Shown here piece after piece: positions 42,915 through 46,800 of a DNA stretch of 48,923 bases. Both the position numbers and the translations under genes were made by a program. The stretch is from NCBI GenBank assembly GCA_025463055.1, contig JAOAPV010000057.1:1-48923 (forward strand), given 5' to 3'. How positions within the stretch are numbered: the stretch's first letter is position 1; every line of letters begins with the position of its first letter. A model generated the notes under the pieces. It saw nothing but the letters and a program-made list of their open reading frames with translations. It had not been told where the DNA came from and did not search any database. This DNA is from Candidatus Acidiferrum typicum. GTDB lineage: Bacteria > Acidobacteriota > Terriglobia > Acidiferrales > UBA7541.

Positions 42915-43072
42915 TGGAATCTCCGGCCTGCTCCTTAGAGGAGCGGAGCACTTGCCGTTCCAACCTGGATGGTCGTCAAGGCCTTCAAAACTCCGAAAAA
43001 ACAAGGATCGTCGGCATTAGATATTGATATTACTCAGGTTCAGTTCAGGCGCCTTGGACAGTTGTCCGCATT

Positions 43073-43104
43073 TTGACAAGCAGCCAACCCGCCAGTGCTA
43101 TAAT
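43073..43104 (+). promoter_or_regulatory. gatB promoter, predicting a leaderless mRNA
   Basis: A perfect TTGACA (43073-43078) and a perfect TATAAT (43099-43104) are 20 bp apart, longer than the 17-18 bp optimum. A start seven bases after the -10 would be at about 43111, on the GTG/ATG cluster that begins gatB. No ribosome site exists between the -10 box and the start codon. Confidence 0.5.
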
Positions 43105-43113
43105 TTTTGTGTG

Positions 43114-44598
43114 ATGGTGAAATCGGCGCCAGAAACGGCAGGTCTTTCTCCCGAAGTACTGGCCAAGTACGAGCCGGTGATCGGGTTGGAAGTACACGTC
43201 CAGCTTCTGACCGATTCCAAGATTTTTTGCGGCTGCTCGACACGATTCGGTGATGCGCCGAACAGCAATACGTGCCCGGTGTGCCTTGGGCTTCCGGGAA
43301 CGCTGCCGGTGCTGAACAAGCGCGTGGTAGAGATGGCGACGCGCGCGTCTTTGGCCTTGAATTGCGAGGTGCACGAGCATTCGCGGTTCGCGCGGAAGAA
43401 TTACTTTTATCCGGACCTGCCCAAGGGATATCAGATCTCGCAGTATGAGTTGCCGCTGGCGACGGGCGGCTGGATTGAAGTGGAGCACGACGGCGCGAAG
43501 AAGCGCATTGGCATCACGCGGCTGCACCTGGAAGAGGACGCGGCTAAGAATTTGCACGAAGGATTTTCGGAATCGTCCACGAAGGCGTACATCGATTACA
43601 ACCGCTGCGGAACGCCGCTTTGCGAAATCGTGTCCGAACCGGACATGCACGCACCGGAAGAGGCGTACGCGTATCTGACGACGCTGCGGCAAATCCTGCT
43701 GTACACCGGCGTTAGCGACTGCAACATGGAAGAAGGGTCGCTGCGCTGCGATGCAAACGTGAGCGTGCGCCTGCGCGGCTCGCGCGAATTCGGCACCAAA
43801 GTGGAAGTGAAAAATCTCAACTCTTTCCGGTTTTTGCAAAAAGCCCTGGAATACGAAATTGAGCGTCACATCGGCGTGATCGAAAGCGGCGGGCGTATTT
43901 CACAAGAGACGCGGCTTTGGAATCAATCCGCGAACCGCACGGATTCGATGCGCTCGAAAGAGAAGGCGCATGATTACCGGTATTTTCCCGAGCCGGATTT
44001 GTTGCCCGTGCACGTGAGCGCGGCTTGGCGCGAGGAAATCCGCGGCGCGTTGCCAGAGTTGCCGGAGGCGAAGCAGCAACGGTTTGTGCGCGAGTACGGA
44101 ATTACCGAGTACGATGCGGAAGTGCTGACCGGCTCGCAGGCGCTGGCGGATTATTTTGAGTCGGTGGCAAAGGCGGGCGGCTCGGCGAAGAGCGCTGCAA
44201 ACTGGATGCAGACGGAACTTCTACGCCGCCTGAACGACTCCGGGAAGGAAATCGAGGCAAGTCCCGTGAGGCCTGCTGCTCTCGCGGAACTGTTGAAGCT
44301 GGTGGAGTCCGGCCAAATCACGGGAGCGGTCGGCAAAAAAGTCTTCGCCTCGATGTTTGAGACGAGCCGGAGCGCCGCAGATATAGTCGCCGCTGAAGGA
44401 CTTGGCGCGCAAGTGGGCGCTGACGCGATTGAGCAGGCAGCGCGGGACGTGATTGCGAAGAATCCGGAGAATGTGGCGAAATTTAAATCGGGGAATGAAG
44501 GGGTATTCAAGTTTTTTGTGGGCCAGGTGATGAAAACTACGCGGGGGCAGGCTAATCCGCACGCTGTGAATGATATTTTGCGTCGGTTACTTTCGTAG
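43114..44598 (+). CDS. gatB: Asp-tRNA(Asn)/Glu-tRNA(Gln) amidotransferase subunit B
   Basis: This subunit of about 494 aa binds the misacylated tRNA and generates the amide on it in the GatCAB complex. The start region has GTG 43111, ATG 43114 and GTG 43117 in one frame; I use the ATG ([10 protein letters not shown]). The catalytic domain contains [13 protein letters not shown], the zinc-site cysteines CGC and CPVC (residues about 34-36 and 51-54), and the phosphate-binding SQYELPLA region. The yqeY-like C-terminal helical domain ends the protein ([27 protein letters not shown]). Length and motifs are standard. gatA and gatC are not in the window, so the complex is encoded at split loci. Confidence 0.96.
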
Positions 44599-44689: not shown

Positions 44690-44713
44690 CTCCAAGAAAA
44701 TCTGAGGTGATTG

Positions 44714-45208
44714 ATGCTCAAGACAGGCGATAAGGCTCCCGAGTTTCGGGTGAAGGCCGATGATGGCAAAGACGTTGCGCTCGCGGATTTTCGTGGGAAG
44801 CGCGTGATCCTGTTTTTCTTTCCGAAGGCGAACACATCGGGTTGAACGGTCGAAGCGTCCGAGTTTCGTGACGCAAAGAAGCAATTTGACAAGCTGAATG
44901 TGGCGATACTTGGAGCGAGCGCCGATCCCGTCAAGACGCAAGCCGGCTTCAAGGAAAAGTACAAATTGAATTTTCCGCTGCTGAGCGATCCCGATTTCAA
45001 GATTATCGAGGCCTTCGGGTCGCGGCGCATGAAGACATTTCTGGGCAAGTCGTTTCTGGGAATTGTGCGCAGCTCGTTTCTGATCGGGGCGGACGGAAAA
45101 ATCGAGCACGTCTGGGACAATGTGAAAGCGAAAGGCCACGCCACCGAAGTGCTCGCCGTGGCCTCTGAAACGAATGGTAAGGCGCAAGCCGCCGCTAAAC
45201 GAACCTAG
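44714..45208 (+). CDS. BCP/PrxQ-type peroxiredoxin, predicted selenoprotein (TGA = Sec44)
   Basis: A 164-residue thioredoxin-fold peroxidase is encoded if the single in-frame TGA (44843-44845, codon 44) is read through. Before it: LKTGDKAPEF, LADFRGKRVILFFFPKANTSG. After it, in the same frame: TVEASEFRDAKKQFDKL, ILGASADPVKTQAGF, FPLLSDPDFKIIEAFG. In this family the motif is F-Y-P-K-A-D-T-P-G-C-T-x-E-A, and the TGA falls exactly on the peroxidatic cysteine. The usual second cysteine (EACEFRD) is serine, and no cysteine exists elsewhere in the frame, so the enzyme would be a 1-Sec peroxidase. GAGGTGA gives a good ribosome site. A SECIS-like hairpin follows the TGA. Conservation on both sides of the TGA argues against a pseudogene. 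Automated callers would leave only a fragment starting near 44900. Confidence 0.88.
44855..44874 (+). promoter_or_regulatory. Bacterial SECIS-like hairpin after the Sec TGA
   Basis: Nine nucleotides after the TGA a stem forms: GCGUC (44855-44859) pairs with GACGC (44870-44874), then CGA pairs with UCG, closing a GUU loop (44863-44865). One unpaired U (44869) sits on the 3' side. The loop G is 18 nt from the last base of UGA, within the range reported for bacterial SelB-binding elements, which need a G-U in the apical loop. The element lies within the coding sequence, as is usual in bacteria. Confidence 0.7.
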
Positions 45209-45228
45209 CTATCGTCGTTCGTAATCAC

Positions 45229-45280
45229 TTGATCGCAACTAGTTGATCGCAATCCGTTGATTGTAATCAGTTGATCGTCG
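45229..45280. repeat. 14-bp tandem repeat (TTGATCGCAAYYNG), four units
   Basis: Units start at 45229, 45243, 45257 and 45271 with exact 14-bp spacing; the last is partial. The array lies between convergent genes and includes the stop codon and last codons of the minus-strand gene. It is too short in period and lacks spacers, so it is not CRISPR. Confidence 0.8.
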
Positions 45281-45845
45281 TCGCCGCGCGGGTGGTGAAA
45301 CTTAGCCGCGTCTCGGCTGGGAACTCGACTTCTTTCTTTCCTGTGGCGGCCGCGCCCACGGTACCGGCTCCTGCCCCGGCGCCCGCGCCAATTAGTGCGC
45401 CTTTGCCGCCGCCGGCGAGTCCGCCGATCAAAGCACCCGCGCCTGCTCCACCACCGATGAATCCGGCGTCGCGCTTGCCCTTACCTCCCATGGTCTTTCC
45501 CGTAGAGCTGGTGGCAATCGCGTACGTCTTTCCGTGGACTTCAACGCTCTTGAGGCGCAGCCAAAGCTTGGCGGGAGTGGAAAGCCGACCGGAAGCTTGC
45601 GCGCTGGTGACTACGAGCTTGGCGTGCGCGCCTTTGGGGATGACGACTTTTCCGTTGGAGGTGACGTCATGCGCCACGGTGGCGACAACGCCTTCGCCAA
45701 CCTTAGCGTTTTTCGAGCTGATGGATTGGTCGATCGTCACCGTAATGGCCGTGCCCGCGGGAACCGAGGTTGCCGCGTGTGTCAAAGTGGTAATGCCGAG
45801 ACAAAGAGCTATTACTGACACAGAAAAACGCGTACGAGAATTCAT
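45267..45845 (-). CDS. Exported glycine-zipper protein
   Basis: This 192-aa protein uses the ATG at 45845 (MNSRTRFSVSVIAL), preceded by GGAGGTGA; upstream open frame of 40 codons lacks such a signal and overlaps the panC end. The signal peptide ends THAA. The mature N-terminal half is beta-rich (AGTAITVTIDQSISSKNAKVG, GKVVIPKGAHAKLVV), similar to TrbI/conjugal-type beta domains seen in many acidobacterial exported proteins. Residues about 130-170 are glycine-alanine zipper (GGGAGAGALIGGLAGGGKG), suggesting membrane insertion or oligomer packing. The final codons lie inside a 14-bp tandem repeat. Function unknown. Confidence 0.8.
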   Translation of the reverse strand: MNSRTRFSVSVIALCLGITTLTHAATSVPAGTAITVTIDQSISSKNAKVGEGVVATVAHDVTSNGKVVIPKGAHAKLVVTSAQASGRLSTPAKLWLRLKSVEVHGKTYAIATSSTGKTMGGKGKRDAGFIGGGAGAGALIGGLAGGGKGALIGAGAGAGAGTVGAAATGKKEVEFPAETRLSFTTRAATTIN

Positions 45846-45921
45846 CTCCGTCACCTCCAGGTGATTTGCTCCAATTAGCCGAACGCGATAGAGCGCGACG
45901 TCCTTTCGGAATGTCGCAATA

Positions 45922-46800
45922 CTAAAGATGGTAGGCGAGTTCTTCGGAATCGCCAACTGGCTCAACGTACAGGTTGTCTATGAGGCGGGTCTTGCCGAGG
46001 AAAACAGCGAGAACGGCGTAACAGGGGCGGGCTATGCGGGTGATGGGCTCGAAGGCGTCGGCGTCCACGATTTCCGCGTAATCCACCCTGGCTAGCGGCT
46101 CTGCGGCGATTACTTTGCGCATTGTGGATTGGAGTTGCAGGGCGTCGCGGACGCCTGCCGAGAGTTTGGCACGGGCGGCTTCGAGAGCGCGATGCAGGAC
46201 GGTGGCGGCTCGGCGCTCGTCGGCGCTGAGATAGGCGTTGCGGGAGGAGAGCGCGAGGCCGTCTGGCTCGCGAATGATCGGGCAGACTACGATTTCCGTC
46301 TCGAGATTCAGGTCGCGAACCATTTGCGAAATGATGCGGACCTGCTGGGCGTCTTTACGGCCGAAATAGGCGTAATGCGGCTCGACGATTTCGAGCAATT
46401 TCATTACGACGGTGGCTACGCCGCGGAAATGGCCGGGGCGCGAGCGGCCTTCGAGGCGGTCGCTGAGCCCTTCGACCGTGACATAGGTGCGGAAGCCGGT
46501 GGGATAGATTTCGGCAGCGTCGGGCAGAAATAGTGTGTCGACTCCAGCAGCGGAGAATTTCTCGGAATCGGATTCAAGCTTGCGGGGATATTTTGCGAAG
46601 TCTTCGTTGGGGCCAAATTGTTTGGGATTCACGAAGATTGATGCGATGACAGGCGAACATTCCAGCTTTGAGCGCTGCACTAATGCGGTGTGCCCTTCGT
46701 GCAACGCGCCCATTGTGGGTACAAAACCGATTATGCGGCTTTCCGCGCGGGCTTGACGGGCGGCCTCTTTCATCCAGGCGATGGTTCGGATTGTTTCCAC
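45922..46800 (-). CDS. panC: Pantothenate synthetase
   Basis: This 292-aa enzyme condenses pantoate and beta-alanine with ATP to make pantothenate. Family motifs are PTMGALHEGH (28-37, HIGH-like nucleotide site), VASIFVNPKQFGPNEDF, the pantoate site DRLEGRSRPGHFRGVATVV, YFGRKDAQQ and the KMSKS-like SSRNAYLS. The GTG start at 46800 puts PTMG at residue 28, as in E. coli PanC. It follows the DinB-family gene by 27 bp; panB lies just beyond that gene, so the pantothenate genes form a short minus-strand cluster panB-dinB-panC. Confidence 0.96.
   Translation of the reverse strand: METIRTIAWMKEAARQARAESRIIGFVPTMGALHEGHTALVQRSKLECSPVIASIFVNPKQFGPNEDFAKYPRKLESDSEKFSAAGVDTLFLPDAAEIYPTGFRTYVTVEGLSDRLEGRSRPGHFRGVATVVMKLLEIVEPHYAYFGRKDAQQVRIISQMVRDLNLETEIVVCPIIREPDGLALSSRNAYLSADERRAATVLHRALEAARAKLSAGVRDALQLQSTMRKVIAAEPLARVDYAEIVDADAFEPITRIARPCYAVLAVFLGKTRLIDNLYVEPVGDSEELAYHL

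Follow-up and report, generated by a model that had tools for sequence, protein, structure and literature searches.

An in-frame TGA at the peroxidatic position of an acidobacterial BCP/PrxQ peroxiredoxin gene is very probably read as selenocysteine

The DNA analysed here (the window) is a stretch of 48,923 nucleotides from the soil acidobacterium Candidatus Acidiferrum typicum. Downstream of gatB and on the same strand, it carries a reading frame of 164 codons followed by a TAG, in which the sole internal stop is a TGA at codon 44 (Table 1). The original prediction had been that a single TGA interrupts an otherwise intact BCP/PrxQ frame without any change of frame, and this proved exact to the coordinates, translation with TGA as U giving a protein of 164 amino acids. 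If the TGA is not read through, what is left is the predicted fragment of 102 amino acids, an ORF at 44900-45208 with a GTG start at 44900. The true start of gatB is probably later than position 43024, as the profile match begins at residue 48. No promoter- or terminator-like sites were found between 44400 and 45400. Right behind the stop codon of the peroxiredoxin gene, short imperfect repeats of the TTGATCGCAATC/TTGATTGTAATC kind were seen by eye at 45217-45280, and a convergent ORF on the minus strand (45267-45965) was matched by no NCBIfam model.

Table 1. Positions of the genes and sequence elements at the locus, numbered from the first nucleotide of the window.
Feature	Position	Strand	Basis
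gatB, upstream neighbour	43024..44598	+	NCBIfam GatB, 694.1 bits (cut-off 414)
Shine-Dalgarno-like GAGGTG ahead of ATG 44714	44704..44709	+	By eye, position checked
BCP/PrxQ peroxiredoxin gene, very probably selenocysteine-containing	44714..45208	+	Translation with TGA as U, profiles, predicted fold
TGA, codon 44, peroxidatic position, very probably read as selenocysteine	44843..44845	+	Aligned to Cys of homologs
Probable bacterial SECIS hairpin	44855..44874	+	Fold of -8.8 kcal/mol and synonymous constraint
Codon 49, TCC (Ser), resolving-cysteine position, inside the hairpin stem	44858..44860	+	Alignment

The protein obtained with TGA as U belongs to the thioredoxin-dependent thiol peroxidases of NCBIfam NF006960 (163.6 bits against a cut-off of 140) and is matched by Pfam AhpC-TSA. 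It has the PxxxTxxC(U) motif and the conserved arginine of BCP/PrxQ proteins (P37, T41, residue 44 and R119), and P37, T41, G43, position 44 and R119 are unchanged across 24 aligned homologs. The sequence around the TGA is PKANTSGUTVEASEFRD, with TSGU as the TxxU motif. An AlphaFold2 model of the protein has a mean pLDDT of 94.7 and shows a helix formed by residues 42-53, whose first turn contains residue 44. The best PDB matches found by Foldseek with this model are BCP/PrxQ proteins, with TM-scores by query length of 0.86-0.92 in the five best rows, the top row being an integrative model (9a4d). Cys-type members such as Xanthomonas campestris PrxQ (5iiz) and the Burkholderia ambifaria BCP (5enu) share the fold, and 5enu also resembles the window protein in sequence (E 3.2e-33); they differ in having Cys where the window protein has its candidate Sec, and many have a resolving Cys, of which the window protein has none. 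A selenocysteine-containing member of the peroxiredoxin superfamily, PrxU, was reportedly described from Eubacterium acidaminophilum by Soehling in 2001. The two proteins are alike in superfamily and in the (here predicted) Sec, yet the window protein is not a PrxU: on NCBIfam NF040737 (peroxi_PrxU), which we take to be named for the Eubacterium protein, it scores 41.5 bits, and the cut-off is 270.

To both sides of the TGA the frame looks like coding sequence. A scan of the window for in-frame TGAs flanked by 25 or more open codons upstream and 40 or more downstream, scored by the codon usage of 27 hand-picked window ORFs with the peroxiredoxin gene excluded, ranked this TGA first by the coding score of the weaker of its two sides (0.15; the next was 0.07), and by this coding-score scan no further hidden TGA gene scoring as high was found in the window. 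For the window gene against five TGA orthologs, dN/dS over codons 55-147 was 0.07 to 0.32, and upstream of the TGA it was 0.22 and 0.31 in the two pairs with computable dS. These values indicate that the part downstream of the TGA is clearly maintained by purifying selection.

The gene was followed through 89 genomes of the acidobacterial family, all of which match the window protein at E 0.001. Orthologs were defined as copies scoring at least 140 bits by tblastn, which gave 83 copies at 82 loci and left eight weaker peroxiredoxin paralogs, and other hits below 140 bits, uncounted. Among the public relatives that carry names are Acidobacteria 'gp2' and Candidatus Acidoferrales MAGs. At codon 44 the 83 copies have TGA (59), TGC (20) or TGT (4). 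The TGA falls in the column of the peroxidatic Cys, as had been proposed from the window alone, and it recurs in sister genomes. One further ortholog (L112, genome G046) falls below 140 bits because its frame is shifted: it is split over two frames that overlap, the first containing the TGA and the second piece being out of frame, with GTC at the aligned column, and the split is probably an assembly frameshift. With this copy included, 80 of the 89 genomes could be classified: 57 have just the Sec form, 22 just the Cys form and one has both. The other nine have no copy reaching 140 bits. In the stretches fetched around the 83 ortholog loci (the 82 plus L112), GatB was matched in 80, by type in 56/58 Sec loci and 23/24 Cys loci; since both forms sit with gatB, they are alternatives at one locus. 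In the genome with both (G069, locus L091) the Cys and Sec copies stand in tandem beside gatB, with codon 44 at 627 and 1206.

Apart from the codon 44 position, the translation of the window gene contains no cysteine, and the resolving position is Ser49, both as originally predicted. The protein thus lies outside the 2-Cys BCP subtype, in which the resolving Cys follows the peroxidatic one by five residues. In the family, position 49 is Ser or Thr in all but one of the TGA copies, and in the 24 Cys copies it is Cys in five and Ile, Val, Asn or Gly in 19. One-Cys BCPs rely on outside thiols. With Sec at codon 44, its selenolate, positioned by Pro37, Thr41 and Arg119, would attack the hydroperoxide and become a selenenic acid; thioredoxin or a small thiol, acting from outside the protein, would convert this to a selenenylsulfide and a second thiol would regenerate the enzyme. 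Because the protein has no resolving cysteine, resolution by an outside thiol is the likely course for such a Sec peroxidase. It is also conceivable, and in our judgement unlikely, that the Sec peroxiredoxin depends on a partner protein of its own or on an intersubunit cysteine, or serves chiefly as a chaperone or sensor, and is not a plain 1-Sec thiol-dependent peroxidase. The missing resolving Cys would fit such a role, as would a Cys at column 68 in 27 of the 59 TGA copies, though the window copy is without it, and chaperone activity is reported for a PrxQ (PMC6590489). Against it, the active-site residues of a peroxidase are unchanged in the 24 homologs; as to a partner gene, the comparison of neighbours across genomes covered gatB.

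A hairpin of 20 nt is predicted just behind the TGA in the mRNA. Its stem has five pairs, then a single base bulging out on the 3' side, then three more pairs, and is closed by a loop, GUU, at 44863-44865, 18 to 20 bases downstream of the TGA. When 52 bases from the TGA are folded, the same structure is the one predicted in many, though not all, of the TGA copies. Synonymous change was compared with an expectation built from gene-wide rates per amino acid, using 58 of the 59 TGA copies (L108, discussed below, was left out). Over codons 45-51 it was 0.24 of expected in the TGA copies versus 1.13 in the 24 Cys copies, for which the lowest window among those listed was 0.57 (codons 77-83). Of 100,000 sets of conserved codons drawn at random, 1 was as uniform as codons 47-53. 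In the 58 TGA copies, codon 48 is GCG in 56, codon 49 is TCC in 54 and ACC in four, codon 50 is GAG in 58, codon 51 is TTT in 57, codon 53 is GAC in 58 and codon 43 is GGT in 53; among the 24 Cys copies codons 43, 48-51 and 53 are variable. The two commonest stem sequences together cover 66 of 84 TGA copies, a count that includes repeats of the same gene. Judged from this pattern of codon use, the constraint on the codons after the TGA is one that acts on the RNA and is tied to the TGA.

A hairpin just after the UGA is a usual feature of bacterial SECIS elements, and one held in TGA copies only is what such an element predicts, so we read this one as a probable SECIS. Pairing was also evaluated in 10 of the 12 hairpin variants (those of L108 and L188, which do not fit the consensus hairpin, were omitted): 85% of cells were paired, versus 12.5-51.3% when the structure was slid along the sequence. 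Covariation in the 10 variants was not above that in shuffles, a single pair having changed on both sides (A-U to G-C).

These data bear on whether the TGA is simply a recent nonsense mutation that has made the gene a pseudogene, or a miscalled Cys codon. The assembly is a draft and TGA is one base away from TGC and TGT; even so, 59 of 83 copies share the TGA, one of them 84% identical and from another genome record, the frame after it is under purifying selection, and the hairpin is constrained in the TGA copies and free in the Cys copies. Pseudogene and sequencing error are rejected on these grounds for the window gene, for which we regard them as very improbable. For one relative (L108, genome G074) they are possible, its TGA lying among Cys-type copies and being without the consensus hairpin. 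This copy has its TGA at 627, Ile at position 49, no consensus hairpin and Cys-type neighbours in the tree, and another hairpin begins about 20 bases downstream of the TGA; it may represent an independent gain of Sec, decay or an error.

The draft genome amounts to 5.33 Mb, is spread over 146 contigs and is 98.9% complete. The genes whose presence a Sec reading calls for, selA (3.9e-139), selB (1.6e-105), selD (4.0e-104) and a tRNA-Sec, were all found in it. The three proteins are above their curated cut-offs, each of which was passed in only 2 of 14 control genomes. With the Rfam tRNA-Sec model the best tRNA scores 65.2 bits, above the cut-off, and the second-best in the genome 45.8; the cut-off is passed by 5 of the 14 control genomes, so that the Rfam match alone is unspecific, and ARAGORN names the same best candidate tRNA-Sec, with anticodon TCA. 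Across the family, 8 of the 89 genomes have no SelA match. SelA is present in 56 of the 58 genomes with a Sec copy versus 18 of the 22 Cys-only genomes, weak matches being counted as absent, an association that carries little weight by itself (Fisher p 0.046, uncorrected for relatedness). The four Cys-only genomes without SelA all belong to one genus, in which a fifth Cys genome has SelA, and the two TGA-copy genomes without a convincing SelA are 79% complete (G068) and 85% complete in about 800 contigs (G014).

General reassignment of UGA is ruled out by the ordinary use of TGA as a stop in the window, where it ends 8 of the 27 hand-picked long ORFs. That the UGA specifies another amino acid (Trp, or that of a suppressor tRNA), or that two products are made, including the 102-residue piece that the ORF from GTG 44900 does offer, has a negligible probability in view of these TGA-terminated ORFs, of a TCA-anticodon tRNA that is the tRNA-Sec while the one tRNA-Trp seen has CCA, of an alternative state of codon 44 that is Cys and never Trp in every copy examined, and of a lone C-terminal piece without the active site. 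Taken together, UGA at the peroxidatic position, a full set of Sec machinery, a constrained hairpin and orthologs with either UGA or Cys make it almost certain, as far as comparison of sequences can tell, that the window gene encodes a Sec-containing BCP/PrxQ peroxiredoxin. SelB and the Sec-tRNA would use the hairpin to decode the UGA as Sec.

The same genome has a second peroxiredoxin gene with a TGA (L118, 413-1039 on contig C64), at 701 and in the same active-site column (FTEGUTKE). It is an AhpC-TSA protein, yet reaches 98.6 of the 140 bits on the BCP model, has a hydrophobic N-terminus and is followed by a different hairpin of its own. Its relatives L114-L117 carry the same TGA.

For a wider view, 109 loci were taken, namely the best 80 of 126 relatives and the 29 new loci whose codon 44 was examined after a search of the phylum (217 of 396 genomes matched at 1e-30). 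Codon 44 is TGA in 24 of these, TGC in 58 and TGT in 27, and nothing else. Thirteen of the 24 TGA loci repeat members of the family, and two of the others (L161 and L201) are identical in the tree. TGA copies outside the family come from records named Nitrospinota (L142, L160), Acidobacteria (L161, L176), Clostridiales (L186) and Planctomycetaceae (L188), with more from within the phylum (L201-L204, L212). On a tree of 177 copies, built quickly under LG+G4 with codons 44-54 excluded and with 65 of 172 inner branches open, the Sec label requires 14 changes, of which at least four are forced by well-supported branches; the tree does not give their direction.

The position of codon 49 within the hairpin stem raises the possibility that the demands of the SECIS took over the resolving codon, TGC becoming TCC, so that a two-cysteine enzyme became a one-selenocysteine enzyme, and that later reversions to Cys44 kept a one-cysteine scar. 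The basis for a scar is the set of Cys-type copies in the family in which the resolving cysteine is not restored (19/24, as given above), and we put this history forward tentatively, as less probable than not. An obligate link between hairpin and Ser49 is opposed by L176, L202 and L204, three more distantly related Sec forms in which Cys49 is retained and the stem differs slightly, and by the wider Cys-type loci, where Cys49 is present in 45/85 and also absent in 40/85. In the three Sec forms with Cys49, a Sec/Cys pair is possible.

Selenoproteins of this kind are already known, and the window gene is another Sec-containing Prx of the Bcp type. A Prx family with COG1225 (Bcp) and the motif TxxU is placed above the 'Predicted' heading in the table of a 2022 review (PMC9312934), the same family is given elsewhere as PF00578 with TxxU (PMC13188914), and Sec-containing Prx were counted in 2006 (PMC1794560), 2008 (PMC2398784) and 2016 (PMC5029168). 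For Acidobacteria, the 2006 count lists four selenoproteins in three families (PMC1794560), and three known selenoprotein genes are given for Occallatibacter riparius in a 2025 paper (PMC12013277). As far as these sources describe the COG1225 TxxU family, the window gene agrees with it in protein family, in the peroxidatic place of its Sec and in the occurrence of Sec/Cys homolog pairs. It differs in belonging to an acidobacterial family in which the gene is linked to gatB, about seven in ten ortholog copies have Sec, and the resolving position, whose codon forms part of the hairpin stem, is Ser or Thr in all TGA copies but one. In the literature covered, mostly papers readable without subscription, no description of this acidobacterial Sec-BCP group was found. 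As far as that search reached, the spread of the gene in the acidobacterial family, the exchange of Sec and Cys at one locus and the hairpin stem over the resolving codon are new.

A gene that appears broken when ORFs are simply listed is thus confirmed as one, and it comes with a large set of Sec and Cys orthologs at a gatB-linked locus. This set is a natural experiment on the gain and loss of selenocysteine in bacteria, and it informs on a SECIS element that is carried in coding sequence, perhaps with a catalytic residue given up for it. If the takeover of the resolving codon is true, a demand for recoding at the level of RNA would have reshaped a catalytic mechanism.
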